Shown: in pieces, positions 5,195-19,109 of the stretch
Layout of the letters: every line of letters begins with the position of its first letter
Position numbering within the stretch: the first letter of the stretch is position 1
Source: a virus
Reading direction: 5' to 3' (one strand)
IMG/VR virus record: IMGVR_UViG_3300035670_000552
Span: 1-39,801 of that record
Length of the DNA stretch: 39,801 nt
Translations under genes and position numbers: made by a program
The notes under the pieces: model-generated
What the model saw: the letters and a program-made list of their open reading frames with translations, nothing else
The model's database searches: none
What the model was told of the DNA's origin: nothing

Positions 5195-5251
5195 GTTGTC
5201 CTCCTGTTTTGCATCTTCTAACTGGGCGTAAGCCCCTGTCGAATGGTTGGA

Positions 5252-5268
5252 TGTCAAGCAAATGTCAA
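5252..5268 (-). promoter_or_regulatory. Tandem TTGACA element (11-bp period)
   Basis: Two TTGACA hexamers on the minus strand, 5268-5263 and 5257-5252, spaced exactly 11 bp. They lie upstream of the 5194 gene and overlap the end of the small membrane-protein gene. The CCCTAGCGCACA part seen in full-length copies is missing here. Confidence 0.5.
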
Positions 5269-5432
5269 GGGTCTTCCGCGAACGCCGCGTCGATGCACTC
5301 CACCGACAACGGCACGGAACACGGGGCTCCACCGAATAGCGGCGCCACTAATCCCCAGATCACGACCATGTAGGCGAGGGGCAAGAACGTGGCCGTAAGC
5401 CAGAACTCGATCTCGTTCTCCCGGCGCTTCAC
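5265..5432 (-). CDS. Small membrane protein (55 aa)
   Basis: GTG 5432 overlaps the stop of the upstream gene (GTGA). A longer start at GTG 5447 is possible. The product starts MKRRENEIEF, followed by one long hydrophobic run (WLTATFLPLAYMVVIWGLV) and a short tail with two cysteines. It is a single-pass, or at most two-pass, membrane peptide. The basic N-terminus suggests N-in topology. Function unknown; phage genomes often carry such peptides. Confidence 0.55.
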   Translation of the reverse strand: MKRRENEIEFWLTATFLPLAYMVVIWGLVAPLFGGAPCSVPLSVECIDAAFAEDP

Positions 5433-5719
5433 GACCGCCCCCAACACACGCCGGCGTTGAACACCGCACGGGTGAACCGGGGGAGGTTTACCGTCTGGTA
5501 GTGGTTGGGTTGATCCCGATCAAACACGCTCTCGCGTAGCGTTGGAAGGGGCTGCTCGGACTGCACACAGGCGCCACAGTCCTCGCACTCGTACTTCCAG
5601 TACGGATCGTGCGGCTCGATCGAGTACTCGTCGAACATCTGCAACTGATTCGGATCGAACTCGACGAGCGTCGGTTCGGGCAAGATAGATCCACAAGAAA
5701 GGCACAGTTCGTAGTTCAT
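5429..5719 (-). CDS. Zinc-ribbon protein (96 aa)
   Basis: ATG 5719 follows GGAG by 7 nt; an in-frame GTG four codons earlier is unlikely because it sits on the RBS. CLSC near the N-terminus and CEDCGAC near residue 48 make a zinc-binding pair. An acidic stretch (EFDPNQLQMFDEYSIEPHDP) lies between them. It shares the C-x-x-C ... CEDCG layout with the 67-aa zinc-ribbon protein at 2970-3173, so the two may be distant paralogs. Function unknown. Confidence 0.65.
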   Translation of the reverse strand: MNYELCLSCGSILPEPTLVEFDPNQLQMFDEYSIEPHDPYWKYECEDCGACVQSEQPLPTLRESVFDRDQPNHYQTVNLPRFTRAVFNAGVCWGRS

Positions 5720-5763
5720 GGTGTTCTCCACAGGCAGGGATGAAGTTTTCGGGTAAGACTAGA

Positions 5764-6360
5764 TCAGTCCAGCATCGACGACTGCACGCCGAACATGGAC
5801 CGGAGGCGGTACAGCGAGGACGCCACTCGATCCCACTTCCACGACGGGGTTTCGACGAAGGTCATCTGCCGGCGGGACAGCGGCATATCGTACTTACGAT
5901 CGCTCGGGTCCGCCGTCACCCACGCCATAATCTGCTCGGCGAGGCCCTTGCGGAAGTTGGAGCGGAAAGCGCCCTTGTAGTAGGTCTTGATCAGTGGAAC
6001 GATGTCGAAGACGACGTGGGCGTCAAGCGACAACAGCGCACGCTGGACGTTCTCGTCCCAGCGGGGATCGACGCCGGCGCCCCACAGGTACTTGTACTCG
6101 ATATGGCGGAGGATCCACTCGGAGGCGCTAAGGAACTCAGGGAGTTGCACCTCGATGATCTTGTAGTGGTTGACCTCGACTTGCATGTCGTTGTCGTACG
6201 ACACGCAGCGCCATACCGTCTCGTTGAGATCGTAGGTACGGCCCTTGTCCGTCGTGGCGATGTTGCCCTCGATAGATACGGCTTCGGCCAGCGGGGACAC
6301 CGTTCCCCAGTTCTCGCCGTTTTCCACAAAGATGATGTTACGCTTGACGATGTTGACCAT
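5764..6360 (-). CDS. Hypothetical protein (198 aa)
   Basis: Strong AGAGGAGG, then ATG at 6360. The protein looks soluble, with a beta-rich N-terminal part (VKRNIIFVENGENWGTVSP) followed by helices (ASEWILRHIEYKYLWG; VVFDIVPLIKTYYKGAF). No catalytic motif recognised. A tandem TTGACA/TTTACC element lies ~100 bp upstream, so it is likely the first gene of its transcript. Confidence 0.65.
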   Translation of the reverse strand: MVNIVKRNIIFVENGENWGTVSPLAEAVSIEGNIATTDKGRTYDLNETVWRCVSYDNDMQVEVNHYKIIEVQLPEFLSASEWILRHIEYKYLWGAGVDPRWDENVQRALLSLDAHVVFDIVPLIKTYYKGAFRSNFRKGLAEQIMAWVTADPSDRKYDMPLSRRQMTFVETPSWKWDRVASSLYRLRSMFGVQSSMLD

Positions 6361-6452
6361 GTTGTCCTCCTCTCGGGCCAGCCCCTCGCCGCCCCGGTGA
6401 ACTACATCTATCCCCGCCCTCCCAGACGTCCACCCTACAGCACAACTTATTT

Positions 6453-6469
6453 GGTAAAGCAGATGTCAA
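6453..6469 (-). promoter_or_regulatory. Tandem TTGACA/TTTACC element
   Basis: Minus-strand TTGACA (6469-6464) and TTTACC (6458-6453), 11 bp apart, upstream of the 198-aa gene. This is a degenerate member of the same repeated family. Confidence 0.45.
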
Positions 6470-6489
6470 GAGTCCCGGAGCGGCCGTTA

Positions 6490-6669
6490 TTATAGTTTGA
6501 CCCTCGATTCTATAATAAGGCTGACCGCCGCCTCCAGCGTGGCGGCCTCCACGGCCTGATTCTCAAGCACGATCACCACACCTTCTGGCCGGATCTCTAT
6601 GTACTCGACTTCGATTCCTCGCGTCCATAGGCGAGCATACGCAGTCTCCACACATTCTTGATCGTACAT
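6490..6669 (-). CDS. Small hypothetical protein (59 aa)
   Basis: ATG 6669 with GGAG 8 nt upstream; stop TAA at 6490. The 59-residue product (MYDQECVETAYARLWTRGIE ...) has a beta strand (VEYIEIRPEGVVIVLEN) then an Ala/Glu-rich helix (AVEAATLEAAVSLIIES), a typical small alpha/beta fold. It is divergent from the dCMP deaminase gene with 89 bp between. Function unknown. Confidence 0.6.
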   Translation of the reverse strand: MYDQECVETAYARLWTRGIEVEYIEIRPEGVVIVLENQAVEAATLEAAVSLIIESRVKL

Positions 6670-6758
6670 CTATCGACTCCGTGCTATCGTTGATAGCGTG
6701 TTCGGCCTCGGCGGTCCCGCCGTTAGGCTTTCAGATCTCTGCACTCTGGAGTTGCCCC

Positions 6759-7217
6759 TTGAAGGACAAGCATATCGGTATTCGGATCTCCCAATGCGCC
6801 ATGCTCGCCTCCGCGTCCCCCTGCCCACGCGCACGCTTCGGGGCCATGCTGATCGACCCAGAACGGAACACAGTGCTCGCCGATGGCTATAACGGCGGAC
6901 CCCGTGGGGGCTCTGCTCTGTGCGGCGGATCTGTCTGCCTACGAGACGAAGGCCAGATCCCCTCCGGCGTCTCCGTCGAAGTCGGTTGCCACCACGCAGA
7001 GATGAACGTGATCTGTAACGCGGCGGCAAACGGAACGGCCACGAGGGGGGCGTGGCTTATCGTCACGGGGGAGCCGTGCTTTCTGTGCGCTAAACTGATC
7101 CATCACGCCGGCATCTCTAAAGTGCTCTGCGTTCGCGGGGGCTATGCCGGTGGCTCTGCCGGTGTAGACTACCTACTCAACCACGGCGTCTCCGTGGAAT
7201 ACCAGAAGGCCGAGTAG
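6759..7217 (+). CDS. dCMP deaminase (cytidine/deoxycytidylate deaminase family)
   Basis: A 152-aa zinc deaminase converting dCMP to dUMP for dTTP synthesis. The zinc site is H79-A80-E81 (His ligand, catalytic Glu) and PCFLC with C107 and C110. The NG-G-PRG loop and LCGG...CLRD segment match phage/bacterial dCMP deaminases, and the length is normal. I chose TTG 6759 because GGAG sits 7 nt upstream; the frame is open further back but without good protein character. It is the only rightward gene in the left 12 kb. Its last 45 nt overlap the end of the convergent Ala-rich gene. Substrate (dCMP versus other cytidine forms) is inferred from family likeness. Confidence 0.88.
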   Translation: MKDKHIGIRISQCAMLASASPCPRARFGAMLIDPERNTVLADGYNGGPRGGSALCGGSVCLRDEGQIPSGVSVEVGCHHAEMNVICNAAANGTATRGAWLIVTGEPCFLCAKLIHHAGISKVLCVRGGYAGGSAGVDYLLNHGVSVEYQKAE

Positions 7218-7739
7218 ATCGGCCCGTTGGGCGGCGCGCTCGGTGGCGCGCTCGGCGGCGGCGGCACAGGCGGCGCGTTCGGCGGCGTAGGCGGCGGCGT
7301 CGGCGTCGGCGGCGGCGGCGGCGGCGTCGGCGGCGGCGTCGGCGGCGTAGGCGGCGTAGGCGTCGGCGTCGGCGTAGGCGGCGTCGGCGGCGGCGCGGCA
7401 CGCCTCTACCGTCACGGTCCCGGCCACGCATCCACGGGCAGCATCCACGGCGGCGCGCAGGACGGGCACGTCACCGGGGCGGGCATGGACCATCGCCCGA
7501 TCGGCGGCGCGGCAAGCCACCTCGACACCGACGGCGCGACCGCCACGAGCCCAGCAGCAGCGCAAGGCCCATACTAGATCGTCAACCTCGGGCGTCACCT
7601 CGGCCCACACGGAAAGCGGCACGGGTTCGTCGTCCTCGGGCGTACGGCCAAGGTGGGCGGACAGGGCGGCGATGCGGTCGTCGAGGTCGCAGGCACGATT
7701 GGTACGGAGTTCGGAGATGGTGATGGATAGGGTGTTCAT
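7173..7739 (-). CDS. Ala-rich repeat protein resembling putative immunity protein Imm-5 family
   Basis: 188 aa from ATG 7739 (GAGGAC RBS; an in-frame GTG two codons earlier is possible). The N-terminal part (DDLVWALRC, then VEVACRAADRAMVH) and the ACRAAADAAYADA pattern resemble Imm-5-like proteins, in which ACDCAE-type and Ala-rich helices follow a conserved WALRC segment. Residues ~112-175 are nearly all Ala, Asp, Glu, Tyr and Arg, encoded by GCC/GAC codon runs, and are likely one long helix or coiled coil. It sits directly behind a full TTGACA/CCCTAGCGCACA promoter element. In phages such proteins have no proven role; the name is by similarity only. Confidence 0.6.
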   Translation of the reverse strand: MNTLSITISELRTNRACDLDDRIAALSAHLGRTPEDDEPVPLSVWAEVTPEVDDLVWALRCCWARGGRAVGVEVACRAADRAMVHARPGDVPVLRAAVDAARGCVAGTVTVEACRAAADAAYADADAYAAYAADAAADAAAAAADADAAAYAAERAACAAAAERATERAAQRADLLGLLVFHGDAVVE

Positions 7740-7782
7740 GGTCACGTCCTCGGTTGTGCTGAGTCTTTATCTCTCAGCAGGC

Positions 7783-7817
7783 TGTGCGCTAGGGTCTATT
7801 TGTCAAGGGGATGTCAA
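7783..7817 (-). promoter_or_regulatory. Full TTGACA-TTGACA-CCCTAGCGCACA element
   Basis: Minus strand: TTGACA 7817-7812, TTGACA 7806-7801, CCCTAGCGCACA 7794-7783. The first hexamer is 17 bp from CCCTAG, the usual -35/-10 spacing. It lies 44 bp upstream of the Ala-rich gene start and overlaps the end of the gene before it. Confidence 0.65.
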
Positions 7818-8273
7818 CCCTGCGGCCTTGAAGAAGTGGTCGCGACCCACGCCGTTTCGGATCCACGGCGGAGCCATGCCGTCCAAGATCCTGAGCGTTT
7901 GGATCAGTAGACGCGCCGCCTGCTCGGGCGGGCTGATCTTGCTCGTCTTGAGGTAGTGATGGGCGCGCTTTGCGGCCTCTTGCATGTCCACGAGGCGGTG
8001 ATCCAACACAGTCTTCTGGACGTACACAGAGACGTAGAAGTCGAACAGGTCCAAGAGGTCGGTGATGCCGGAGATCGCCGCCTCCTTGCCGCCGGCGTAC
8101 CACTCCGTGCTGAGGAGCCACACCGCTTCATCGACAGTAAGATCGAGACGCTGCACCAGCGTACGCATGTCCACCGAGTCCTCGGCCCCCATGCCCGCCC
8201 GATCAGCCCAGTAGTTCTCGTACTTGTTGGAGTAGCCCGTCGTCTTCGCGAAGTGGATGGTGATGTCGTTCAT
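7803..8273 (-). CDS. Hypothetical protein (156 aa)
   Basis: ATG 8273 with CGGAGG upstream. Mostly helical soluble protein with several Trp and Tyr (NKYENYWADRAG; EAVWLLSTEWYAGGKE; LLDLFDFYVSVYVQK). It resembles phage proteins of unknown function that begin MNDITIHF. It ends inside the promoter element that serves the next leftward gene. Confidence 0.6.
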   Translation of the reverse strand: MNDITIHFAKTTGYSNKYENYWADRAGMGAEDSVDMRTLVQRLDLTVDEAVWLLSTEWYAGGKEAAISGITDLLDLFDFYVSVYVQKTVLDHRLVDMQEAAKRAHHYLKTSKISPPEQAARLLIQTLRILDGMAPPWIRNGVGRDHFFKAAGLTSP

Positions 8274-8334
8274 GGTGTCCTCCGGTGTTGTGCTGAGCCT
8301 CTATCGCACAACCTAGCCCGCGCCACAGCGGTTC

Positions 8335-8351
8335 TGTAAAGGGGTTGTCAA
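8335..8351 (-). promoter_or_regulatory. Tandem TTGACA/TTTACA element
   Basis: Minus strand TTGACA 8351-8346 and TTTACA 8340-8335, again 11 bp apart, ~60 bp upstream of the 156-aa gene. The downstream CCCTAG part is absent. Confidence 0.45.
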
Positions 8352-8359
8352 GACGACCC

Positions 8360-8893
8360 TTAGCGGAACCACCCATAGCACAGATCGTAGGTCGCGCTCG
8401 GCCCCTCGTCCGGGATTCGTGCGTTGTAGGTGTGTCTTGATAACCCGTGGTTCTGGTGAAGCCCTCCGGCCTTCTCCTCGGCGGACAGTTCCTTCGACTT
8501 CCAAGACCGCTTTGTGATCCTGTCCCGCATCTCCTCCACACTAAAGGGACGGCCGTATTCGTCCTCGATATGGACGCCGGGGGTGGCCCACACGCGCTCC
8601 CAATCCGCGAGGGATTGGATCCCCTCGTGGACGGCAAGACCGAAGCACCAACCGAACGAGGACTTCCCGATATGCAGCCGCCCCGGAGGGAAGATCAGGT
8701 TCTTCGCACGAGCAAAGAGGGGGTGGTCCTCCTCGATCTGCGACAGATCTTCCGCCTCACGGCCGTCCCGGAACCCCACGCTCCACGCCTCTCGCAGCAT
8801 GATCTGGACGTTTCTCCACGTCTCAAGCGGGAGCGTTACTTCGCGCTCGGCGTCGGGGTGGTCGTAGCCGACCACAAAGTAGTTCGTACCCAT
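8360..8893 (-). CDS. Conserved phage protein of the MGTNY / HIGKSSFGWCF type
   Basis: 177 aa from ATG 8893, chosen for AAGGAG 7 nt upstream and the characteristic MGTNYFVVGY start. It carries the LHIGKSSFGWCFGLAVHEG segment and a DEYGRPFSVEEM motif, a combination I recognise from many phage hypothetical proteins (MGTNYYL ... HIGKSSAGWCF). Residues between could include a Cys/His site in relatives, but no CxxC is present here. Function unknown in the family. The stop is close to the tandem TTGACA element. Confidence 0.7.
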   Translation of the reverse strand: MGTNYFVVGYDHPDAEREVTLPLETWRNVQIMLREAWSVGFRDGREAEDLSQIEEDHPLFARAKNLIFPPGRLHIGKSSFGWCFGLAVHEGIQSLADWERVWATPGVHIEDEYGRPFSVEEMRDRITKRSWKSKELSAEEKAGGLHQNHGLSRHTYNARIPDEGPSATYDLCYGWFR

Positions 8894-8897
8894 GCGC

Positions 8898-9299
8898 TTA
8901 CTCCTTTGATCCATGCTTCGTGAGCGCAAGCCACTCGACCACGCGATCATCGGCGTCGAGAAACGCCTGCTCCCAACCGACATCGTTGATGTGGTGTCCG
9001 CCGTCGCGGTGGATCCTTGCAAGAAGCTCGCCCGCCCAGCACTGGATATCCCGCAGGGCTTCGACTTCAGCGTGCAACGCCTCGACGGTGGCGGCGAGGT
9101 CGGGAGCGGCGGCGATGAGGGCGGCGTCTGGCGTGTGCGTGACGTACTCGCACACGGTCCAGCCCGATCCATCGTCCTCTACGCCGTCTCGCGGCGCTGA
9201 GTCCGCCTCCACCGTGTCATCCCTGTCGCGCCACGGCCCCGGCGTCGCTGCCTCCCGCAGCGCACGGGCCTCCTCGGCGGTGATCATTCGGTGGGTCAT
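8898..9299 (-). CDS. Ead/Ea22-like protein, paralog A
   Basis: 133 aa, ATG overlapping the upstream stop (ATGA). N-terminal MTHRMITAEEARALREAATP followed by GPW, then DAALIAAAPDLAATVEALHA, the hallmark of Ead/Ea22-like phage proteins: a GPW-containing N-terminus and an AAAPDL helix. Ends in a Trp-containing acidic tail. One of at least four adjacent genes sharing the same N-terminal cassette. The biochemical role of this family is unknown. Confidence 0.65.
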   Translation of the reverse strand: MTHRMITAEEARALREAATPGPWRDRDDTVEADSAPRDGVEDDGSGWTVCEYVTHTPDAALIAAAPDLAATVEALHAEVEALRDIQCWAGELLARIHRDGGHHINDVGWEQAFLDADDRVVEWLALTKHGSKE

Positions 9300-9775
9300 G
9301 GGGTCACCTCGCCAGCCGCCACGACAACGTAACCTTCGACCTCGTAGTCTAGGCCGCGCTCACGGAGCCATTCGCCGCGCTCCGACCCGTCATCACGGGT
9401 CGCCCCGATCACCTCCTCGGTGTGCGCTACGACGGCAAAGATCACGCACTGATCGTCGTGCGCCTCACCGTTGTCGTGCAAGAACTCCGTCATGAAATCG
9501 AGGGCGAACGCCTCAGCGTCCGATCGTGAGTCGAACCACTCCATGCTTTGCTCGGGGTGGTAGACCATCCAGCGGTTTGGGCCGCCCCCGACGAGGGCGC
9601 GCAGGGTTTCGATCTCGGCGTGCAGCGCCTCGACCGTATGGCAGAGGCTTGCCACGACTCGCGGGGCGCGGGTCAGCGCGTCGGGCGCACCAGCGGCAAG
9701 CATGATCGCAAGACCTTCCTCGCTCTGATGGCGAAGCGCACGGGCCTCCTCGGCGGTGATGATGCGGGGGGTCAT
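9296..9775 (-). CDS. Ead/Ea22-like protein, paralog B
   Basis: 159 aa, ATGA-coupled at both ends. Starts MTPRIITAEEARALRHQSEE and contains VASLCHTVEALHAEIETLRAL, matching the helix of paralog A, but lacks the GPW element. The C-terminal ~90 residues (WMVYHPEQSMEWFDSRSDAE; HDDQCVIFAVVAHTEEV) form a different beta-rich domain, so the N-terminal cassette seems shared while the C-termini were swapped. Confidence 0.6.
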   Translation of the reverse strand: MTPRIITAEEARALRHQSEEGLAIMLAAGAPDALTRAPRVVASLCHTVEALHAEIETLRALVGGGPNRWMVYHPEQSMEWFDSRSDAEAFALDFMTEFLHDNGEAHDDQCVIFAVVAHTEEVIGATRDDGSERGEWLRERGLDYEVEGYVVVAAGEVTP

Positions 9776-10101
9776 TCTGCACCCTCCTGTCGGCCCCGCG
9801 TAAACGCGGAGAACGCCCGGTGCGCAGCTTCGTGTGCCTGTATCGTGCGGCTAAACTCCGACGCGCTCAACGGCAACCGGATCGCGCCGAGATAGCCGCA
9901 CCGATCGCAGAACGTTTCCATTGTTCCTTCGCCGGTGCGCGCCTTCAGGCCGTCGCACGCGGCACCCACGGGGACCGCATCACGCGAGGGGTAGGTATGC
10001 CCGCGTTCGCAAGTGTCGTTGCCGTGCAGGCGACGTTCGCGAAACTGCCCCGGCGAGCCACAGGTGGGGCAGAATCCGTATGGTGTTCGGCGTTCGGTCA
10101 T
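9772..10101 (-). CDS. Zinc-ribbon protein (109 aa)
   Basis: ATG 10101 overlaps the stop of the 55-aa gene (ATGA). CPTC and a later C at LHGNDTC form one zinc knuckle set; CDRCGYLG near residue 61 forms another. The helical C-terminus is rich in Arg, Ala and His. Likely a metal-bound nucleic-acid or protein adaptor. No named family recognised. Confidence 0.6.
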   Translation of the reverse strand: MTERRTPYGFCPTCGSPGQFRERRLHGNDTCERGHTYPSRDAVPVGAACDGLKARTGEGTMETFCDRCGYLGAIRLPLSASEFSRTIQAHEAAHRAFSAFTRGRQEGAE

Positions 10102-10265
10102 GGCTTGTCTCCGGTGCAATAGTTCTTTGCGCGCCCACAATGGGCGCACGTCGGCGGGATGGGCCGGTCGTCGCGGTCGTAGGTGACCTCGGCGTAGGTG
10201 TGGCGGCTGCCCTGCTCCCACAGGGCACGGGCCTTGTCGGCGGTGATGATGCGCGGGGCGGTCAC
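10098..10265 (-). CDS. Mini Ead-like/zinc-knuckle protein (55 aa), paralog C
   Basis: GTG 10265 overlaps the upstream stop (GTGA) behind GAGGTGAT; stop TGA at 10098. The product begins MTAPRIITADKARALWEQG, clearly related to the N-termini of the neighbouring paralogs, then runs into PTCAHCGRAKNYC, a compact CxxC...C metal site. It seems to be a short hybrid of the Ead-like N-terminus and a zinc knuckle. Coding is supported by the shared N-terminal motif and the tight coupling on both sides. Confidence 0.65.
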   Translation of the reverse strand: MTAPRIITADKARALWEQGSRHTYAEVTYDRDDRPIPPTCAHCGRAKNYCTGDKP

Positions 10266-10681
10266 GGCATCACCTCAAAGTCAATCTTGCACAGGCGATC
10301 ACACCAATCGTCCCACGCCGGGTTGCACTGAGACGCGATGATGTCATACGCCTCGTCAAGCAACGTTTGGAGTTGCTTGGCGTGATCCCTCTCGTGGGCG
10401 AGTAGAGCGTGCAGCGCCACGACGGACGCGGCAAGGTCGGGCGCAGCGGCGACCAGCGCCGCATTGGCGTTCGCCACGATCTGCCCAACATGGGGCAAGT
10501 ACTCGCTGCCGTACACGGAGATAAAGCCGCTCCATCCAGTATACTGGAGTCGAGGCTCCCCATGCTCCGTGCTGATGTATACCTGACATTCACGCGGCCT
10601 GTCCTCGATCTTCCACGGCCCCGGCGTGGAATCCTCAAGGAGCGTCCGCGCCTCGGCGGCGGGGATAATACGGGTAGTCAT
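10262..10681 (-). CDS. Ead/Ea22-like protein, paralog D
   Basis: 139 aa; ATG 10681 overlaps the upstream stop (ATGA). Starts MTTRIIPAAEARTLLEDSTP with GPW, and has ANAALVAAAPDLAASVVALHA, both as in paralog A. The C-terminus (NPAWDDWCDRLCKIDFEV) differs. Function unknown. Confidence 0.65.
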   Translation of the reverse strand: MTTRIIPAAEARTLLEDSTPGPWKIEDRPRECQVYISTEHGEPRLQYTGWSGFISVYGSEYLPHVGQIVANANAALVAAAPDLAASVVALHALLAHERDHAKQLQTLLDEAYDIIASQCNPAWDDWCDRLCKIDFEVMP

Positions 10682-10959
10682 GCGGTCACCTTCTTGGGCG
10701 GGCGGACGTACGTCCATGCTGCTGGGTGGTTGTAGATCAGGCGAAACTCGATATTCGGATTCCGCCTTTGCAGGCGCTCAAGATCTGCTTCCGCGATCTC
10801 GGCGTCCCAGAAGAACTCGCCGATCAGACCCCACACATTTGAATCAGGGTGAAACCACTCGATCGCGTGGCGACCGTACTCGGTGCGGGTAAAGATATAG
10901 CAGCCCAACTCGTAAACGCTCTCGCGGGTGGTGTTCTTTGTCGTCATGTTGTCGGTCAT
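10678..10959 (-). CDS. Hypothetical protein (93 aa)
   Basis: First gene after a full promoter element. ATG 10959 or ATG 10947 could start it; neither has a strong RBS. The protein is soluble, with aromatic residues (YGRHAIEWFHPDSNVWGLIG) and a helix (DAEIAEADLERLQRR). No family recognised. Confidence 0.55.
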   Translation of the reverse strand: MTDNMTTKNTTRESVYELGCYIFTRTEYGRHAIEWFHPDSNVWGLIGEFFWDAEIAEADLERLQRRNPNIEFRLIYNHPAAWTYVRPPKKVTA

Positions 10960-11003
10960 CGTGTCGCTACGTTGTTGTGCTAGACCTCTATTCGGGTGGC
11001 GGC

Positions 11004-11038
11004 GGTGCGCTAAGGTTTCTTTGTCAAGGGACTGTCAA
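11004..11038 (-). promoter_or_regulatory. TTGACA-TTGACA-CCTTAGCGCACC element
   Basis: Minus strand TTGACA 11038-11033, TTGACA 11027-11022, CCTTAGCGCACC 11015-11004. Same 11-bp and 17-bp spacings as the other copies. Upstream of the 93-aa gene, overlapping the end of the gene at 11024. Confidence 0.65.
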
Positions 11039-11377
11039 TGGCGCAGCCTCCAAGGCGGCGATCAGGGCTTCGGCTTCGGTGGCGCCGTCACCCGGATCTA
11101 TCGCCTCGTCACGGTCGGAGCATAGCGTCCAACGCCCGTAATAGGCCATCGTGTAGGCCAGAGGATCGCCCCAAGCCTCCCGCACCAGCGCGAGCAGGCA
11201 GCCCAGCGTGGCGGGGTCGGTGAGGACGGGCACGGCGTCGGCGTGCTCCTCGATCGGTCCGGTGACGATGCGGAGGCCCCACGACCGTGGCGACGACAGC
11301 AGCATCCCCGGCATCCACCGCCAGCGAGGGCAGGCGACAGCGCGACGGGCGAGAGCGTCATGCTCGGCGGCGGTCAT
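11024..11377 (-). CDS. Hypothetical protein (117 aa)
   Basis: ATG 11377 overlaps the upstream stop (ATGA). The N-terminus MTAAEHDALARRAVACPRW is loosely like the TAEEARAL start of the Ead-like paralogs. RW-W-PGM and PVLTDPATLGCLLALVREAWG suggest a small alpha/beta protein of a type frequent in phages. The C-terminal helix TEAEALIAALEAA is common in such proteins. Function unknown. Confidence 0.6.
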   Translation of the reverse strand: MTAAEHDALARRAVACPRWRWMPGMLLSSPRSWGLRIVTGPIEEHADAVPVLTDPATLGCLLALVREAWGDPLAYTMAYYGRWTLCSDRDEAIDPGDGATEAEALIAALEAAPLTVP

Positions 11378-11616
11378 GGGGCCACCTCGGCGTTGTTCGC
11401 GAACCACTCCACGATGAAACGCTTTTGATCTGCGACGGTTTCAAGGCGCTCCAGTTGCGCGGCGATAGAACGGGCCTGAGCGATCGGAAGACCGTGGAAC
11501 TGCACGTCGTGGAAACCGTCGATCACCTGAGCGACGTAGTATGCGTTCCGGCGCCAGACGCGCTCGACGACGATCGGGTGGGCGGCCGTACGGTAGTCTG
11601 CTTCGGTAATGATCAT
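11374..11616 (-). CDS. Hypothetical protein (80 aa)
   Basis: ATG 11616 with GGAGG six bases upstream and an ATGA overlap with the 48-aa gene. Starts MIITEADYRTAAHP, a possible distant relative of the RIITAEEA start of nearby paralogs. Remaining sequence is alpha/beta (NAYYVAQVIDGFHDVQFHG; ARSIAAQLERLETV). Function unknown. Confidence 0.6.
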   Translation of the reverse strand: MIITEADYRTAAHPIVVERVWRRNAYYVAQVIDGFHDVQFHGLPIAQARSIAAQLERLETVADQKRFIVEWFANNAEVAP

Positions 11617-11759
11617 TGGGCACCTCCAGTAAGTTGCGCGTTGTATCGCGCCTTGTGTGCGCGCACGTTTGCCTCTTTCCAAACGATCTCCGCCTCGTTG
11701 ACGGCTTGCGCTGCGGCTTTGGCGGTGTGGGTTGCGGTGTGGGTTGCGGTGTCGTTCAT
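11613..11759 (-). CDS. Small Ala-rich helical protein (48 aa)
   Basis: ATG 11759 follows GGGGGGA; stop TGA at 11613 overlaps the next start. The product starts MNDTATHTATHTAKAAAQAV and continues as one amphipathic Ala/Glu/Lys helix. It has a good RBS and is coupled to its neighbour, and it is the first gene behind a full promoter element. Function unknown. Confidence 0.55.
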   Translation of the reverse strand: MNDTATHTATHTAKAAAQAVNEAEIVWKEANVRAHKARYNAQLTGGAQ

Positions 11760-11803
11760 GGTGTCCCCCCTCGGTTGTGATGGTGTCGTATCCTCGGGGG
11801 GAC

Positions 11804-11838
11804 TGTGCGCTAGGGCTAAGTTGTCAAGGCCGCGTCAA
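11804..11838 (-). promoter_or_regulatory. TTGACG-TTGACA-CCCTAGCGCACA element
   Basis: Minus strand TTGACG 11838-11833, TTGACA 11827-11822, CCCTAGCGCACA 11815-11804. Same geometry as the other copies. Lies 45 bp before the 48-aa gene. Confidence 0.65.
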
Positions 11839-12518
11839 ATGAACAGGGCCTCGCGCTCCCAACCGCCCACGGCGAAGACGTCGTACGGAGACGTGGCCGC
11901 GATAGACATGATCTCCACGCCCAACGCGAACGCCGTGTACGGACGCCCGTCGCGCTCGATCATACGGGCGCTCGTAGACTTCGGGGCCGCACCCGGAGGG
12001 AGCCACTCCTCACTACCACTCGGACCAGAATACGGATCGTGCGTCTCCTCCACCCAGCACACCCAATCAGGACCGCCCACCACGCTCGTAGGGAACTGGC
12101 CGTCCCCGAACGCCGTACGCGCAACGTACTCCCACGCCGTCTCGCCCTCGTCGGGCGGGCCGAACGCCACGCCCTCGGAAGGGACGCCGGGGGCCGGGGC
12201 GGACGCCGCGCCGGGGACGGGGACGGGGACGCCGGGGGCCGGGGCGGACGCCGCGCCGGGGGCCGGGGCGGACGGGACGCGGGGCACGGGGACGCCGGGG
12301 GACGGGACGGACGCCGCGCCGGGGGACGGGACGTCCGGGTCCGCAATACGCAGCACCATGTCCCGCACGCCCGCGATGGCGCGGTCGTAACGCTCCGCAC
12401 GGGAAGGGTCGTCCACGTCACGCGCAAGCGTAAGGCGGTCCGCCACGTCCAGCCCACGCGCCGTCACGTCAAGCAAAAGACCAAGGTACTCAAGGATTTC
12501 GTCAGGTACGTTCTGCAA
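11835..12518 (-). CDS. Protein with Pro/Ala-rich repeat linker (227 aa)
   Basis: TTG 12518 with GAGGAGG six bases upstream. Residues 1-60 are helical and charged. Residues ~63-113 are a low-complexity linker of PAPGAAS and PGVPVP-type repeats, matched by GC-rich DNA repeats at 12177-12335. Residues 114-227 form a separate folded part (GETAWEYVARTAFGDG; DGRPYTAFALGVEI). The layout suggests two domains tethered by an extended linker. No family recognised; it may be a virion-surface or host-interaction protein, but the leftward early location does not favour that. Confidence 0.6.
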   Translation of the reverse strand: MQNVPDEILEYLGLLLDVTARGLDVADRLTLARDVDDPSRAERYDRAIAGVRDMVLRIADPDVPSPGAASVPSPGVPVPRVPSAPAPGAASAPAPGVPVPVPGAASAPAPGVPSEGVAFGPPDEGETAWEYVARTAFGDGQFPTSVVGGPDWVCWVEETHDPYSGPSGSEEWLPPGAAPKSTSARMIERDGRPYTAFALGVEIMSIAATSPYDVFAVGGWEREALFI

Positions 12519-12581
12519 GGGTTCCTCCTCGCCGGCCGAAGGGCCGGACCCCCACACACTAAGGCGACACAGGCCACAGCA

Positions 12582-12610
12582 CTAGACCCCGCACGTCAAC
12601 TCCAAGTCAA
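12582..12610 (-). promoter_or_regulatory. TTGACT-TTGACG-GTCTAG element
   Basis: Minus strand TTGACT 12610-12605, TTGACG 12599-12594, then GTCTAG 12587-12582 at the same 17-bp distance as in full copies. It lies 64 bp upstream of the TTG start of the Pro/Ala-linker gene. Confidence 0.5.
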
Positions 12611-12858
12611 GAGACAGTACCGCGCACGGGGGGATCGCGGGCAAAGCACGGTAGAAGCAGGACAGTACGAGGCACAACCACCACGGCCAGCAGCCCGCCA
12701 GCAGCCCCCAGACCCCCGCACCCCCCGGAAACCAGCGGCCGGTAGGGGGTACGGAGACTGTGCGCTAGGGTAACAAAATCGGGCGAAAACGTAGGTAGCA
12801 GCACGCTTATCTCCGAATAGGGCCTTTAGACCCCCCTATATTACTTCACACCATAAAG

Positions 12859-12886
12859 TTGAATAAATATATATTTGTTATAGTAA
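12859..12886 (+). promoter_or_regulatory. AT-rich promoter for terminase genes
   Basis: TTGAAT (12859-12864), 16 bp, TAGTAA (12881-12886). It shares GTTGAATAA-N5-TATTTGTT with the element at 21993-22020 before the portal operon. The spacing fits a sigma70-like promoter. Confidence 0.55.
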
Positions 12887-12889
12887 AGT

Positions 12890-12907
12890 AATCAATCGTG
12901 ATTGATT
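12890..12907. promoter_or_regulatory. Perfect inverted repeat, possible operator
   Basis: AATCAATC, GT, GATTGATT: an 8-bp perfect inverted repeat starting 4 bp after the TA-rich hexamer, i.e. at the expected transcription start. Placement is typical of a repressor operator. Confidence 0.5.
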
Positions 12908-13128
12908 GTTTTAGGAGACCAAATATATGTTTATTCTACTTTCTCCGCCGAAAGAGTTTTCCGCCGGAAACGGGGCGAAACGGGGAGAAGCGAGGAACGG
13001 CCAGTGTTTTGGCCCGATTCGGAAACCCTAGCGCACAGCGGCGCGCACACGGGCGCGGGCGGACCGGGGCGCCGGGGGCGTGGACGGTACGGCGGACGGG
13101 GGATAGGTTGGATCGTAAGGAGACGACA

Positions 13129-13716
13129 GTGCGCTACCCAACCCCGCCGGCAGATCGGCCCATTAACACCGGCAACACCACGGCGGCCGGAGTGCTGAGG
13201 GCGTGCGACCTCGTGAGCCGGGGGATGGGATTCAGCAACGCCTGCGCGTTGGCCGGGATCAATCGCAGCCGTGCGGATTGGGCGCGGTTCGGCGAGCACG
13301 ACGTTTTCTGGGAGTGGGCGCTATCGTGCATGGAGTTGGCGGAGGCCGGCTTCGTGGGCAACGTGGAGTTGGCGCTGGGGGAGATCGCGTACACGAAGGA
13401 CGAGGAGGGGCGTCTACACAAGGACGCGCTCCGCGCCCAGCAGACGATCCTCAAACGGCGCAGCGAGATGTACGCGGAGGAGGCGCAGCGGCGCGAGACG
13501 ACGGGCCTCTCCATCACGATCGACAAGATTCAGTTGCTCCTGTCCGGGGCGACCGGGGCACCGGCGGCGGTGGTGGGCGCGGCGTTCCCCTCGCTCTCCG
13601 ACACGTCAGTGATCGAGGGAGAGGTGGACGAGGACACGGACGACGGCGCGCTCCCGGCCCACGTCACGACGGAGAAGCGGGACTTCGCGTTCAAGCGTAA
13701 GGCGGTGGAACGTTGA
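13129..13716 (+). CDS. terS: Terminase small subunit
   Basis: A 195-aa protein that recognises phage DNA and recruits the large subunit. The call rests on its position directly before TerL and on the N-terminal helix-turn-helix (AGVLRACDLVSRGMGFSNAC, then ALAGINRSRADWARF), typical of small terminases. A central helical region (QTILKRRSEMYAEEAQRR) probably mediates oligomerisation; the acidic tail EGEVDEDTDD precedes a basic end. I chose GTG 13129 for its AAGGAG; the frame is open back to 12898 but that extension has no protein character and crosses the promoter. The stop overlaps the TerL start. Confidence 0.8.
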   Translation: MRYPTPPADRPINTGNTTAAGVLRACDLVSRGMGFSNACALAGINRSRADWARFGEHDVFWEWALSCMELAEAGFVGNVELALGEIAYTKDEEGRLHKDALRAQQTILKRRSEMYAEEAQRRETTGLSITIDKIQLLLSGATGAPAAVVGAAFPSLSDTSVIEGEVDEDTDDGALPAHVTTEKRDFAFKRKAVER

Positions 13717-15341
13717 GCCTGATCCGCGACCCCCTGTCCCCTGACCGCCCACGGCCGTTCGCCTTCACGCCGTCGGGTCCGGTCCACTACGACAAAGATC
13801 TCCCCGGAGACAGCGAGTGGGAGGAGCAGGAGCAGATGCGGATGATCGCCGCAGTCACCACCCTGTCCGGCTTCATCCGTTACGTCTGGCCGATCTTGAA
13901 TCCGGGCCGCGAGTTGCTGTGGGATAAGCACCTCGACGTGGTGTGCTACGCGCTGGAGCAACTCCTGTTTGGCAACATCGAGGGCAACGAGTTGGTGATC
14001 AACATCCCGCCTCGCTCGCTCAAGTCCGTGTCGGTGTCCCAGTGTATGCCGGCGTGGGCGTGGCTGTACGCTCCGTGGATCCAGACGCTCGGCGTAGCGT
14101 CGGGCGAAAAGATCGCGGTGCGCGACACCAAGGCTATGCGGCGTCTAGTGTCGCATCCCAAGTACGTCCGGCTGGCCGCGTTCGCCAACGAGTATCTTGG
14201 GACGTTCGGCTACGGAACCAACTGGGAGATCACGGCGGACCAGAACCAGAAGATGCGCTTTGAGACGACAGCCGGCGGGCACCGCGTAGGTCTGGCCGCA
14301 GGCGCGGCGATCACGGGCGAGGGTGCGGACATCTTCATTGTGGACGACCCCATCGACGCGAAGAAGGCGATCGAGGGTGGGCGCGAGGCGATCATGTCCA
14401 CGATGGCAGAGACGATCGAACGCTACGGCGGTGTCTGGCACTCGCGCCTCAACGACCCCAAGCGAAGCGTCCGAGTCACGATCATGCAGCGGCTCCACGA
14501 GGCGGACCTCTCGGGGTGGTTGCTAGATCAGGGTGTGGCAAACATCGTGCTGCCGACAGAGTACAATCCCGACCACCCGCACAAGTGCGATCTGGATTGG
14601 CGCACGGAGCGCGGCGAGTTGTTGATCCCCTCCCGCATCGGGCCGGCTGAGGTGGCCACGCTCAAGAGGACGTGGGCGGCAGAGCACTACGCAGCACAGC
14701 ACGATCAGTTGCCTACGCCGATGGGTGGCGGCATGTTCCCGTCAGATAGGTGGCGACACTACACGGAGCACCCTCGTGTGGTCTGGCACCGTATGCGCAA
14801 GAGCGGTAAGGTGATCGCCTCCTACGACATCGCAAACAAAGTGGGCGAGCGCAACGCCTACTCGGTGATCTATGTTCTGGCCAAGGCGAACCTGACGAGA
14901 ACGATCTATGTCCTCGCCGAGTATCGTGGCCAGTGGGAGTACCCTGCGCTGGAGCGTATGATCGAACAGGTGGACAGCGATTGGTCCCCCTCGACGCACG
15001 TCATTGAAGACGCGGCCAACGGCACAACCCTTATCCAAGCCAAGGGCCGGAGATTCAAGATCACGCCAGTGCAGCCGGCGGCGTGGGGCGGCAAAGAGAC
15101 GAGAGCGAACTACACGCAGTCGCATCAGTCGGACGGATCTATCGAACTCCCGGAGCGCGAGGCGTGGGTGCCTGAGTTGATCCGAGAACACGCGACGTTC
15201 CCGCGAGGCAACTATGCTGACCGTGTGGACGCCTTGTCTCAGGGATGCCTGTTCTTGGATGTGATCGACAACCAACTATCGCACCCAACCAGCGGGCTGG
15301 ATTGGTTGAAGACCGTAGGCAGCAGGGCGTACAACTTCTAA
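13713..15341 (+). CDS. terL: Terminase large subunit
   Basis: 542-aa packaging ATPase-nuclease. Walker A-like PPRSLKS at residues 99-105 (K104), Walker B IFIVDD at 207-212, then the motif MQRLHEADLSGWLL typical of this family. The C-terminal RNase H-like nuclease carries acidic residues D372 (SYDIA), E432/D433 (VIEDAANG) and D503/D506 (YADRVDALSQ). It starts at TTG 13713, overlapping the TerS stop (TTGA); the next in-frame ATG is ~42 codons later and would lose conserved sequence. The length is standard. Confidence 0.93.
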   Translation: MSLIRDPLSPDRPRPFAFTPSGPVHYDKDLPGDSEWEEQEQMRMIAAVTTLSGFIRYVWPILNPGRELLWDKHLDVVCYALEQLLFGNIEGNELVINIPPRSLKSVSVSQCMPAWAWLYAPWIQTLGVASGEKIAVRDTKAMRRLVSHPKYVRLAAFANEYLGTFGYGTNWEITADQNQKMRFETTAGGHRVGLAAGAAITGEGADIFIVDDPIDAKKAIEGGREAIMSTMAETIERYGGVWHSRLNDPKRSVRVTIMQRLHEADLSGWLLDQGVANIVLPTEYNPDHPHKCDLDWRTERGELLIPSRIGPAEVATLKRTWAAEHYAAQHDQLPTPMGGGMFPSDRWRHYTEHPRVVWHRMRKSGKVIASYDIANKVGERNAYSVIYVLAKANLTRTIYVLAEYRGQWEYPALERMIEQVDSDWSPSTHVIEDAANGTTLIQAKGRRFKITPVQPAAWGGKETRANYTQSHQSDGSIELPEREAWVPELIREHATFPRGNYADRVDALSQGCLFLDVIDNQLSHPTSGLDWLKTVGSRAYNF

Positions 15342-15362
15342 ACCGAACTGCGCAGAACAACA

Positions 15363-15390
15363 CTGAACAATATTGTATATTGTATAAAAT
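15363..15390 (+). promoter_or_regulatory. AT-rich promoter-like element
   Basis: CTGAAC (15363-15368), 16 bp, TAAAAT (15385-15390), with the internal TGAACAA-N5-TATATTGTATA echoing the terminase and portal promoters. It starts 21 bp after the TerL stop. Confidence 0.45.
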
Positions 15391-15567
15391 AAGGGTACAG
15401 GTTGTGCGCAAGTGTTTTGTTGATCTTGGCGCCGATCACGTTTTTTGTGCTTTCAACCTACACTTTCGCCCGTTGTCTACACATAACACGTCTGTGATCG
15501 GTGTGCAAGTGCGTGATCTGCCGCATGTTGTTGCGGTCCGATCGTGTGATCTAGGAACTCCATCGTA

Positions 15568-15686
15568 GATCGGATCAGAGTGGTCTTCCTTGCTTGCTTG
15601 CCCGCCCGTCCGTCCGGTCCTTTCCGGCCCCGCCGCCGGCGAGGGTAGGGCATACATGTTGATCGGATCAGAGTTGGCCTCCTTGC
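15568..15686 (+). repeat. 26-bp direct repeat pair (GATCGGATCAGAGT...CCTTGC)
   Basis: Copies at 15568-15593 and 15661-15686 share the first 14 bases (GATCGGATCAGAGT) and the last 6 (CCTTGC). A related third copy with TTGATCGGATCA lies at 16755-16766. The core is an imperfect palindrome, so a protein-binding site is plausible. Confidence 0.55.
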
Positions 15687-15700
15687 CGCGCTACGGTCCC

Positions 15701-15735
15701 TTGACTTACGCTTGACAAGAACACCCTAGCGCACA
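15701..15735 (+). promoter_or_regulatory. Full TTGACT-TTGACA-CCCTAGCGCACA element (rightward)
   Basis: TTGACT 15701-15706, TTGACA 15712-15717, CCCTAGCGCACA 15724-15735. It is the only full copy on the plus strand and lies 46 bp before the rightward zinc-finger gene. Confidence 0.65.
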
Positions 15736-15781
15736 TCCCTCGGCGCGATACAGTCCCAACACCAGAGTCGAGGAGGACACC

Positions 15782-16081
15782 ATGACGAAGACGACCTACG
15801 CTTGCCCCCGTTGCTGCGGAACCGGAACCATTAAGGCGCACAGTAACGTCCTCGGTGGCGTCTGCTTTCGTTGTCACGGGTCTGGCCGCCTTGAGGGTAA
15901 GCCGCCCAAGGCTACGCCCGTGTGGGTGGTGCGGGCTACGCGGATTGAGGACGGAGAGCACATCGACATCTACACCACGAAGCACGCCCGCCCGGAGGTA
16001 GTCCGCGCAGAGGCCGAGCGCCGCTTCTCTAAGACGGGCGTGTACGATGTCGGCACGATCGAGATTCTCCCCGCGCCCTAA
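15782..16081 (+). CDS. DnaJ-type zinc-finger protein (99 aa)
   Basis: ATG 15782 behind GAGGAGG. Two CxxCxGxG-type units, CPRCCGTGTI and CFRCHGSGRL, make a DnaJ-like central zinc domain without the J domain. The C-terminal half (WVVRATRIEDGEHIDIYTTK) is beta-rich with a helix at AEAERRF. Small proteins like this are common in phages; role unknown. It is monocistronic, behind the plus-strand early-type promoter and ahead of a hairpin at 16101. Confidence 0.7.
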   Translation: MTKTTYACPRCCGTGTIKAHSNVLGGVCFRCHGSGRLEGKPPKATPVWVVRATRIEDGEHIDIYTTKHARPEVVRAEAERRFSKTGVYDVGTIEILPAP

Positions 16082-16100
16082 CCACAACCCCCCCCTCCAA

Positions 16101-16127
16101 CCCCCAACCCAGTGGGGGTCGTTTTGG
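16101..16127 (+). terminator. Probable terminator after zinc-finger gene
   Basis: CCCCC, loop AACCCAGT, GGGGG, then TCGTTTT. It begins 20 bp after the stop codon. The stem is short and the T-run weak. The loop and flanks recur at 19124-19139. Confidence 0.45.
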
Positions 16128-16393
16128 AAAAGCCACCCCCCCAGAGGGGCACCCCCCTACCGGGGGTCCAGAAGTCGCCCTTCTGCCCGCCCCCCAGCAC
16201 TGCCCCACGGCGCCCTCGGAAACGGCCTCCAGAGCGCGCCACGGGCCGCGCCCATACTCGCCCCGCCCTCCGCCGGCCGCGCTGCGAGAAGGCCCTTAGA
16301 GCGCGTCCTAGAGCGGCCTGTCCCGGAACGCGAAACGGCCCGACCTCGGGCGCCGCCGTGCGTGGGCAGCGAGAGAGATCGGGCCGGCCGGGA

Positions 16394-16411
16394 GCGAAAA
16401 AAATTTTTCGC
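16394..16411. repeat. A/T-tract palindrome (GCG-A7-T5-CGC)
   Basis: A hairpin of GCGAAAAA paired with TTTTTCGC and a two-A loop. It could end transcription from the zinc-finger gene (the T-run lies inside the hairpin) or be a bent or melting site. Confidence 0.5.
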
Positions 16412-16500
16412 CGCAAAACAGAAAAAAAATGTAAGTCCCCTAGTAGGGGTTTCGCGATCCGCGCTCCGCCGCCGCCCCCCTCGGGGCGGGGGGCGGGTGG

Positions 16501-16530
16501 GGTTGTCACGATTTGTCACGGGGCTTGACA
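16501..16530 (+). repeat. Left inverted repeat of the 16.5-19.0 kb cassette
   Basis: This 30-bp site reads GGTTGTCACG ATTTGTCACG GGGCTTGACA. Its reverse complement recurs at 18959-18998, differing only by one extra G and an extra GTGACAAATC unit. Confidence 0.75.
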
Positions 16531-16680
16531 CCCCCCTCCTATATTATAACACGCCCGCGCCGGGGGGTCAAGCCCCGCGTGAACTTTTTTTCGCTTTTTT
16601 TCGTGGTCCGTCGTGCGTTGTGTTGCGTTCATCGTTCCCCCTTATGCCCTTAAGGTATCGCACAGCGTCCGCAAAGTCAA

Positions 16681-16993
16681 CCCTACCGCACAACAAAAAC
16701 GAAAAAAAGTTTCGGGTACCGTGAAAGCGTAGGTTCAAGGCCCACTATTCCACGTTGATCGGATCAAGGGTATCCTTGGCACGCTTAGTGCATCGCGTGC
16801 GCGTGTACCTTGACGCGAACCGGCCCCCGGCCCCCGGCCCCCGGCCCCCGGCCCCCGGCCCCCGGCCCCCGGCCCCCGGCCCCCGGCCCCCGGACACGGT
16901 ACCCGAAACTTTTTTTTGTCGAATAGTGGGCCTTGAACCTACGTTTTTGCGATACTGAGGCCCCCCGTTCGTTTTTTTGTTGTGCGGTAGGGT
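16681..16993. repeat. Mosaic inverted repeats flanking the GGCCCCC array
   Basis: Three segments left of the array recur inverted on its right: CCCTACCGCACAACAAAAA (16681 with ~16992), GTTTCGGGTACCGTG (16710-16724 with 16895-16909) and a 23-bp segment at 16729-16751 with 16921-16943. The order of the segments differs between the arms, so it is not one simple hairpin. Confidence 0.7.
16822..16891. repeat. Ten-copy GGCCCCC tandem array
   Basis: A 7-bp unit repeated ten times without error, between the two arms of a mosaic inverted repeat. Copy number may be unstable in replication or assembly. Confidence 0.9.
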
Positions 16994-17085
16994 TGCGTTC
17001 CTAGTCGGCCGCGGATACTATCAAACCATCGGAACGCTGCACTGACGCGGTGCGCCGACTAACCGCCCAACCTTGGGGTCTTACC

Positions 17086-17319
17086 ATGTCGAACCGTTAC
17101 CATATCCACGTCGACGGCGAAAATATCGCAATCTTCCTTGATAAGGGAAAGGGCTACCGCAACCCGTTGGTGGAGACTATCACTAACCCCCACACGTTTG
17201 ACGCGTTGGTGTTCTGGGCGAGCAAGGGGTCCGATATGCCAGAGCGTAGCGCACGTGTCCACGCGCTGTGCGCGGCTATGGAAACGTTGGCGCGCGCCAA
17301 CGCCCGTGTGCAAGCGTGA
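17086..17319 (+). CDS. Small hypothetical protein (77 aa)
   Basis: ATG 17086 (MSNRYHIHVDGENIAIFLDK); the RBS is weak (TTGGGG). Likely alpha/beta: a strand pair, then helices (TFDALVFWASKGS; RVHALCAAMETLARANAR). First gene of the cassette operon; its stop overlaps the GTG of the next gene. No family recognised. Confidence 0.65.
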   Translation: MSNRYHIHVDGENIAIFLDKGKGYRNPLVETITNPHTFDALVFWASKGSDMPERSARVHALCAAMETLARANARVQA

Positions 17320-17447
17320 GTGGGCCTGTTCTAGCCGTGGGCCTAGCCGCCGCATCCGCCCTATCCGCTTGGGTCGGGCCCGAAGTTACCATTCACTCAG
17401 TTACGCTTGTGTGTTCGCTTGCCTTCCTGTTTACTTTCGTGGGGTGA
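17316..17447 (+). CDS. Small two-helix membrane protein (43 aa), holin-like in form
   Basis: GTG 17316 overlaps the upstream stop (GTGA); stop TGA at 17445-17447. The product starts MSGPVLAVGLAAASALSAWV and continues through a short polar turn (GPEVTIHS) into a second hydrophobic run (VTLVCSLAFLFTFVG). Two transmembrane helices joined by a tight turn is a holin-like layout, though at 43 aa it is shorter than most holins. It could equally be an exclusion or accessory peptide. Coding support: exact overlap upstream and a 3-bp gap to the next gene. Confidence 0.55.
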   Translation: MSGPVLAVGLAAASALSAWVGPEVTIHSVTLVCSLAFLFTFVG

Positions 17448-17450
17448 CCT

Positions 17451-18074
17451 ATGACGAAACCGAAGACTAAGGTTCAAACGGAAACCCTTACAGACGTTGC
17501 GGCGTTCCGTGCGACGTTGACAGAACGCGTGCAAGCGTACGTCAACGCGGATCGCGACGTGGATAACGCCACCGACAGGGCGGAACGGGAGCGTGCGATG
17601 TCGCGACGTCGCCACGCTACAACGCGGCTACGGTCGCTCGTTTCCGAAACCGTCGCGACGTTGGAGGAAGGGGTAACCCTTTCGGGCGGCTACCGTGCAG
17701 CGTTGACCGATGCACGAAAGGCCCTAGGGGCCAAAGGTGCGCCCCTAGTCGACGGGTTGCCCGTCGCGACGGCCCGTGAGTGGGACCCCGTAGCCGTTTA
17801 CCGTTGCCCTGCATGCTCGCACGTTGGAGTTGCGGTGGATGACTTCGGTGCGCGCCTTGACCCTATGCGGGTCGCCGTTGCGGACGTCGCGACGTTGCGC
17901 GCAACGTGGTTGGATCCCGAACACGGCCTAGCCCCTCGCCAGACTAGGCGTATCGCTTGCGACGTTGCGCGGCCGCATCCTACAGACCCTGCAGCGTGCT
18001 ATGTGTTGCGCCCCTACCGACAGTCTAACTGCAACGCGTGCCGAACCCTAGCCGCGCGCAAGCGTGCGGAATGA
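17451..18074 (+). CDS. Putative zinc-binding protein (207 aa)
   Basis: ATG 17451 behind GGGGTGA. N-terminal ~100 residues are helical and Arg-rich (RDVDNATDRAERERAMSRRR). The C-terminal half holds CPACSHVGV around residue 119 and later CNACRTLAARKR at the end, which together could bind one zinc ion. Many CTAG sites and few GATC sites, unlike flanking genes. The stop overlaps the start of the lipoprotein gene (ATGATG). No family recognised. Confidence 0.65.
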   Translation: MTKPKTKVQTETLTDVAAFRATLTERVQAYVNADRDVDNATDRAERERAMSRRRHATTRLRSLVSETVATLEEGVTLSGGYRAALTDARKALGAKGAPLVDGLPVATAREWDPVAVYRCPACSHVGVAVDDFGARLDPMRVAVADVATLRATWLDPEHGLAPRQTRRIACDVARPHPTDPAACYVLRPYRQSNCNACRTLAARKRAE

Positions 18075-18172
18075 TGCGACTAGTCGGCGCATTAGTCCGA
18101 CTTGCTGTGGCGTTAGCCTTTATCGGGCTGTTGTCCTGCAACCCTAGCAATACAATCACAAGCGAGGTTTAA
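18074..18172 (+). CDS. Very small lipoprotein (32 aa)
   Basis: ATG 18074 (or 18071, overlapping the upstream stop) to TAA 18172. MRLVGALVRLAVALAFIGLL precedes SCNPSNTITSEV: basic start, hydrophobic core, then a lipobox-like L-L-S-C. After processing only ~11 residues would remain, as in colicin release peptides and some superinfection-exclusion lipoproteins. Its C-terminus (SNTITSEV) resembles that of the next protein (NNTPQSEV) because the DNA there is duplicated. Function is not proven. Confidence 0.55.
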   Translation: MRLVGALVRLAVALAFIGLLSCNPSNTITSEV

Positions 18173-18377
18173 TCATGGATCCAGTAACTGCAACCGGCCT
18201 AGCCGAGGGGTGGATCGAAGGAAGCGAGGAAGCACAAATTGAGGCTTGGCAATACCTAGTCGACACCGGGTTGGCGTGGAAGTTGCAAGGCTGGTTCGGT
18301 AGAACGGCCAGTCAACTAATCCAAGCCGGCTATATCCGCCGTCCTAACAATACACCGCAAAGTGAGGTTTAATCATG
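18143..18377 (+). repeat. 35-bp direct repeat exactly 200 bp apart
   Basis: 18143-18177 and 18343-18377 share CCTA-CAATACA and GAGGTTTAATCATG, about 29 of 35 positions. Each copy ends one gene and provides the RBS (GAGG) and ATG of the next. Confidence 0.75.
18175..18372 (+). CDS. Conserved small phage protein (DUF7417-like)
   Basis: 65 aa from ATG 18175 (GAGG RBS). The segment IEAWQYLVDTGLAWKLQGWF followed by GRTASQLIQAGYI is a pattern I know from many small phage proteins (AWQYLIDTGLAW.LQG.FGR.A..LI..G), labelled DUF7417 if memory serves. Helical and soluble; function unknown. The last residues lie in the 35-bp direct repeat. Confidence 0.7.
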   Translation: MDPVTATGLAEGWIEGSEEAQIEAWQYLVDTGLAWKLQGWFGRTASQLIQAGYIRRPNNTPQSEV

Positions 18378-18998: not shown

Positions 18999-19109
18999 CC
19001 GGATGGGGGTACCTGAACGCGTGTTCAGGGGGGGTCTACAGCCTTAGGGTGGTGAACCGTCAGATACCGATCAACAAAATCGTCTCGGGCTTGCGTACGG
19101 CGGCCGAAC

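Follow-up and report, generated by a model that had tools for sequence, protein, structure and literature searches.

A family of putative regulated promoters sharing a tandem TTGACA pair in an uncultivated tailed phage

The window analysed here (IMGVR_UViG_3300035670_000552, positions 1–39,801) is a 39.8-kb fragment of a tailed phage and carries contractile-tail genes (portal, terminase, head protease and sheath). Six related sequences, the putative promoters P1, P3, P4, P5, P6 and P8, precede genes starting at 5194, 7739, 8273, 10959, 11759 and 15782, gene starts being the calls of our own simple gene caller. A deoxycytidylate deaminase-like gene (PF00383) lies at 6681–7217 (+), its neighbours being on the other strand. 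The sole relative found, G001 (49,822 bp), is about 99% identical to the window across 28–7243 and 18343–39801 and about 80% alike across 16820–18177; the block at 16820–18343 differs strongly from G001, which is elsewhere 99% identical. G001 lacks 7243–16820, the region holding five of the six promoters, and P1 lies outside that region. As G001 spans the gap between the two ends of the window, a composite of about 59.6 kb was built from both, and whole-genome counts and matrix ranks refer to this composite (119,102 positions scored). Low-complexity tracts rich in G and CCCCCGG occupy 1–120 and 16820–16893; the G001 contig also starts at the latter, so both tracts probably break assemblies.

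A sequence-only reading of this DNA had described a 35-bp promoter-like element in four full copies and a fifth variant. The four sites, at 7783–7817, 11004–11038, 11804–11838 and 15701–15735, are all present with the claimed spacings, and these sequences and fixed spacings are directly seen. Not all are full copies, however: the site at 11004–11038 carries CCTTAGCGCACC, and the first hexamers are TTGACG at 11804–11838 and TTGACT at 15701–15735. With up to three mismatches allowed, TTGACA-N5-TTGACA-N6-CCCTAG occurs five times in the window compared to 0.00 expected in shuffles, and TTGACA-N5-TTGACA (up to two mismatches) occurs 15 times compared to 1.65 expected. Exact TTGACA pairs in the composite number six at a spacing of 11 and one at all other spacings from 6 to 59 together. 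An unbiased dyad count of intergenic DNA placed TTGACA-N5-TTGACA and CCTA-N3-CACA among the strongest. The position before genes is equally plain in the DNA: ten of 16 pairs sit 40–110 nt upstream of a same-strand start, compared to 4.4% of positions (p 2e-10). This preference for gene starts in the same orientation speaks against the sites serving replication or partition instead of transcription, a reading that draws on the boxes flanking AT-rich and inverted-repeat regions (12759–13037 and 16681–16992) and that we regard as very improbable.

The candidate −10 block emerged when the twelve best pairs were aligned with the pair as anchor. A TA dinucleotide lies exactly 31 nt past the pair in six of the twelve, which are P1, P3, P4, P5, P6 and P8 (binomial p 4.9e-7; equalled in 7 of 20,000 random rotations), the core having been derived from the very six sequences on which its spacing was tested. 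It begins a hexamer of the type TARAGR, and a conserved A follows (within CACAAC in most), then a ribosome site and the start codon. We infer that this hexamer is the −10 and that transcription would start at the conserved A. The shared register of about 66 bp thus runs from TTGACA-N5-TTGACA over exactly 31 nt to TARAGR, the putative A(+1), the ribosome site and the start codon. The unit is therefore about 66 bp, not 35 bp as first described, since its conserved register extends through the −10, the +1 and the leader. At −7 the hexamer does not have the T that a sigma-70 −10 would be expected to carry. A matrix scan of the kind that the sequence-only reading had proposed recovered the whole family: with a 66-bp matrix and leave-one-out scoring over 119,102 positions, each of the six promoters outscored all non-members in the composite. 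Scored by themselves, the last 29 nt (−25 to +5) placed four of the six within the top 7. P1 was recovered mostly via its pair, its downstream part alone ranking 1781. The six promoters may be recent duplicates, in which case their conservation could partly reflect shared descent.

Five of the promoters are on the minus strand. P1 (5208–5268, −; gene start 5194) has its pair at 5252–5268, no box, the hexamer TAGAAG at 5215–5220 and a putative +1 at about 5208; its sequence is identical in G001. P3 (7757–7817, −; gene start 7739) combines a pair at 7801–7817 with the box CCCTAGCGCACA at 7783–7794, TAAAGA at 7764–7769 and a putative +1 A at about 7757; it ranked 4 of 119,102 when left out, with only other members ranking higher. 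P4 (8291–8351, −; gene start 8273) has the pair TTGACA/TTTACA at 8335–8351, a degenerate box, TAGAGG at 8298–8303 and a putative +1 at about 8291. A perfect inverted repeat, GTTGTGC-N12-GCACAAC, lies over the P4 −10 at 8287–8312, and GCACAAC recurs at other start regions. P5 (10978–11038, −; gene start 10959) carries its pair at 11022–11038, the variant box already mentioned at 11004–11015, TAGAGG at 10985–10990 and a putative +1 at about 10978. In P6 (11778–11838, −; gene start 11759) the pair TTGACG/TTGACA (11822–11838) is followed by a box at 11804–11815, TACGAC at 11785–11790 and a putative +1 at about 11778. P8 (15701–15761, +; gene start 15782) has the pair TTGACT/TTGACA at 15701–15717, a box at 15724–15735, TACAGT at 15749–15754 and a putative +1 at about 15761. 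Two of these members had been overlooked, with minus-strand pairs at 5252–5268 and 8335–8351, where CCCTAG is missing or barely kept.

With the TA set as −12, the pair falls at about −60 to −44, a location suited to the binding of an activator or another regulator; it ends about 8 bp upstream of the −35 position. In four of the six promoters CCCTAGCGCACA occupies −37 to −26, its CTAGCG covering precisely −35 to −30, and so takes the −35 place, not the −10 place. The sequence-only reading had instead taken the first TTGACA as the −35, CCCTAG 17 bp further on as an unusual −10 for a special sigma or other factor, and the second TTGACA as a regulator site. The 17-bp spacing is indeed exact in four sites, with CTAG also present in the fifth variant. 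However, CCCTAG matches TATAAT at one of six bases, occurs elsewhere without the pair, and is missing from two of the six, P1 and P4, both of which retain pair and downstream core. That assignment also leaves the conserved TARAGR/+1 block unexplained, the TA-containing hexamer lying exactly 31 nt past the pair in all six, with a plausible A(+1), a ribosome site and a start immediately after it. Sigma region 4 (PF04545) gave no match in the two phage contigs (G000 and G001), although a very divergent sigma would escape such a search. Nor does the TTGACA of either repeat suit the −35 role, as no fitting −10 lies 16–18 bp away: none of the six promoters appears in the sigma-70 promoter listing with a consensus −10 at that distance from either TTGACA of the pair. 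We therefore consider this assignment of −35 and −10 quite improbable, whereas the wider claims of a repeated promoter family tied to gene starts, with a site for a special factor, and of the second TTGACA as a regulator half-site, are supported.

Pair and box are separable, as is seen directly from their occurrence apart. The consensus box CTASCGCACA has nine exact copies in the 59.6-kb composite, all nine of them intergenic (intergenic fraction 17%; p 1e-7). These copies take both orientations relative to genes and several have no TTGACA pair, while pairs are also found without a box, as in P1, which lacks CCCTAGCGCACA, or with a degenerate one, as in P4. Box and pair are thus probably the sites of two proteins. 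Without a pair, CCCTAGCGCACA occurs at 12759–12770 (−) and, divergent from that copy, at 13026–13037 (+), and CCCTACCGCACA occurs at 16681–16692 (+), inside an inverted-repeat region, and at 16981–16992 (−), where the core TGTGCGSTAG is kept in G001 although the stretch around it is otherwise about 80% alike. A further copy, CTACCGCACA, lies at 21874–21883 (−) in the leader of the gene starting at 21859. As CCCTAGCGCACA recurs at other intergenic places, it is most simply explained as the site of a second regulator that would tune or repress these promoters.

The regions around some of these sites have features of their own. AT-rich islands with GTTGAATA inverted repeats lie between divergent gene clusters at 12830–12960 and 21990–22140 and have boxes or inward-facing TTGACA pairs on either side. 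Dense inverted repeats surround a CCCCCGG tract at 16500–17000 and 18960–19000, with GTGACAA repeats of 10-bp period in inverted copies at 16500–16524 and 18966–19000; these repeats are a possible replication origin or packaging region. A promoter candidate at 16981 (+; TTGCGT-N17-TACTAT) was rejected, as it is not kept in G001.

Not every pair belongs to a promoter of this type. The fifth variant of the sequence-only reading, P7 (12582–12610, −), retains a degenerate pair (TTGACT/TTGACG, 12594–12610) and CTAG, but its downstream promoter core is not conserved and it falls outside the top 16 matrix hits. A degenerate pair, TTGACA/TTTACC, lies at 6453–6469 (−) upstream of the gene start at 6360 and is followed by a reversed box at 6433–6444; in G001 both of its hexamers are kept and one spacer base is changed. 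Exact pairs at 21937–21953 (+) and 22177–22193 (−) point from opposite sides into the same AT-rich divergent intergenic region. The pairs at 21937 and 22177, and those at composite positions 52739 and 56903, have no −10 at 31 nt.

TGTCAAG is part of the L5 stoperator, and CTTGACA is its reverse complement. Pair and box might then be repressor operators of the stoperator kind, scattered in a temperate phage and blocking promoters or elongation. The box is asymmetric and multi-copy, with exact copies exclusively intergenic, and a monomeric repressor with two DNA-binding domains acting on an asymmetric site has precedent in the L5-type stoperators of cluster A mycobacteriophages (PMC9283540). Against this, the fixed phasing of the pair to the start-proximal core fits an activator, the boxes are of mixed orientation relative to genes, and we noticed neither an integrase nor a lysogeny gene in the proteins that were examined. 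We regard operators of this kind as unlikely, and prefer a regulator acting positively through the pair, activation being likelier than repression because of the position of the pair.

Our preferred reading, which we hold on balance, is that the phage has at least six regulated promoters with a weak −10 and no normal −35, controlled by a protein on the TTGACA pair, with the box as the site of a second regulator. The main RNA polymerase of the host would start at an A about 12 bp past the start of the weak −10 (TARAGR). Polymerase binding would be helped or controlled by a DNA-binding protein occupying the tandem direct repeat (about −60 to −44), whose two TTGACA half-sites share one face of the helix, and the box over the −35 position in four of the six promoters (−37 to −26) may provide a second control point, tuning or repressing. 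The family would drive operons of mostly small, non-structural genes without assigned function. Two TTGACA hexamers one helical turn apart, upstream of a non-standard core, probably require a special DNA-binding protein to turn these genes on or off; both activation through the pair and the identity of the bound protein are inferences. The same phage has a near-perfect sigma-70 site, TTGACC-N17-TATAAT, at 16571–16543 (−), which suggests that the host probably reads ordinary consensus promoters, so that the weak cores of the family stand out and look deliberate. No annotated gene lies directly downstream of that site, which perhaps serves a small RNA.

Which protein might read the pair? A candidate regulator, already suggested by the sequence-only reading, is a 289-aa protein encoded at 3639–4508 (−), in the operon behind P1, whose downstream genes include it. 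The two helix-turn-helix (HTH) domains noticed in its sequence are present in the AF2 model, in tandem at residues 160–196 (pLDDT about 80–90) and 211–245 (about 70–86). The mean pLDDT of the whole model is 51, and its top hit in a fold search, the Tc3 bipartite DNA-binding domain (E 0.094), is no more than a lead. The protein weakly resembles Mor/late-activator-type transcription activators of phages. Common descent of the two domains was not significant by sequence, 346 of 1000 shuffles scoring as well. We tentatively propose, as a rather doubtful extension, that this protein founds a family of activators: its two HTH domains would recognise the two TTGACA half-sites, which are one turn from each other, recruit host polymerase to the −35-less promoters and control its own operon via P1.

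An OmpR/PhoB-type regulator from the host would suit the format of the repeat just as well; under this special form of the preferred reading, phage genes would follow a host two-component signal. Sites of this family consist of two tandem hexamers with a 5-bp spacer and an 11-bp period (PHO box, HP1043 box; PMC4415409, PMC8345958), and the TTGACA pair is a tandem direct repeat with just this period. The phage contigs contain no Trans_reg_C (OmpR-type) domain, so such a regulator would be the host's, and some cyanophage promoters are bound by host PhoB (PMC10976474). However, repeat format alone is weak evidence, prediction of pho boxes in phage is unreliable by that paper's own account (PMC10976474), and the pair-plus-box pattern had no matching DNA among 84,980 genomes. 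We judge a host regulator of this type improbable.

Pattern scans of viral and genome collections for the motif gave no matches, nor did a search of Rfam. Searches with terminase, portal, HTH, polymerase, helicase and sheath returned the one 99% relative and otherwise matches of at most about 30% identity, and those of the latter that were examined lack the motif. Phages often govern many small takeover genes via one repeated promoter. The family supplies an exact 66-bp criterion by which such genes can be sought in a phage that is uncultivated and has hardly any known relatives, and it points to two separable sites of control and a single candidate protein.

How does this layout compare with known systems? 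Lambda CII and T4 MotA act at phage promoters that lack a good −35 and have an activator site near the −35 position; the direct repeat recognised by CII has its halves about one turn apart and flanks the −35, while the MotA box replaces it. The present promoters resemble these in lacking a good −35 and, for CII, in the spacing of the repeat, but their pair lies further upstream than the CII repeats or the MotA box. PHO boxes typically overlap the −35, whereas the pair here ends about 8 bp upstream of it, and the phage encodes no Trans_reg_C protein. L5 stoperators share with CTASCGCACA a short asymmetric site in many intergenic copies, but the box consensus differs, here a second, tandem site is phased to a promoter core, and lysogeny genes were not noticed. 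In cluster K mycobacteriophages, ESAS elements are repeated intergenic sequences of about 46–47 bp, each a putative promoter plus a repeat, before several non-structural genes of a single phage, with seven such elements in phage Adephagia (PMC3203893, PMC11373665). ESAS elements combine an inverted repeat with a SigA-like −35/−10, whereas the present family has a direct repeat upstream and no consensus −35; none of the six promoters has the SigA-like −35/−10 plus 17-bp imperfect inverted repeat of ESAS, and the sequences are not alike, judged from published descriptions. The layout matches none of the compared known systems (ESAS, L5 stoperators), and ESAS, as repeated promoter-bearing elements upstream of non-structural genes, are nearest to it in kind.
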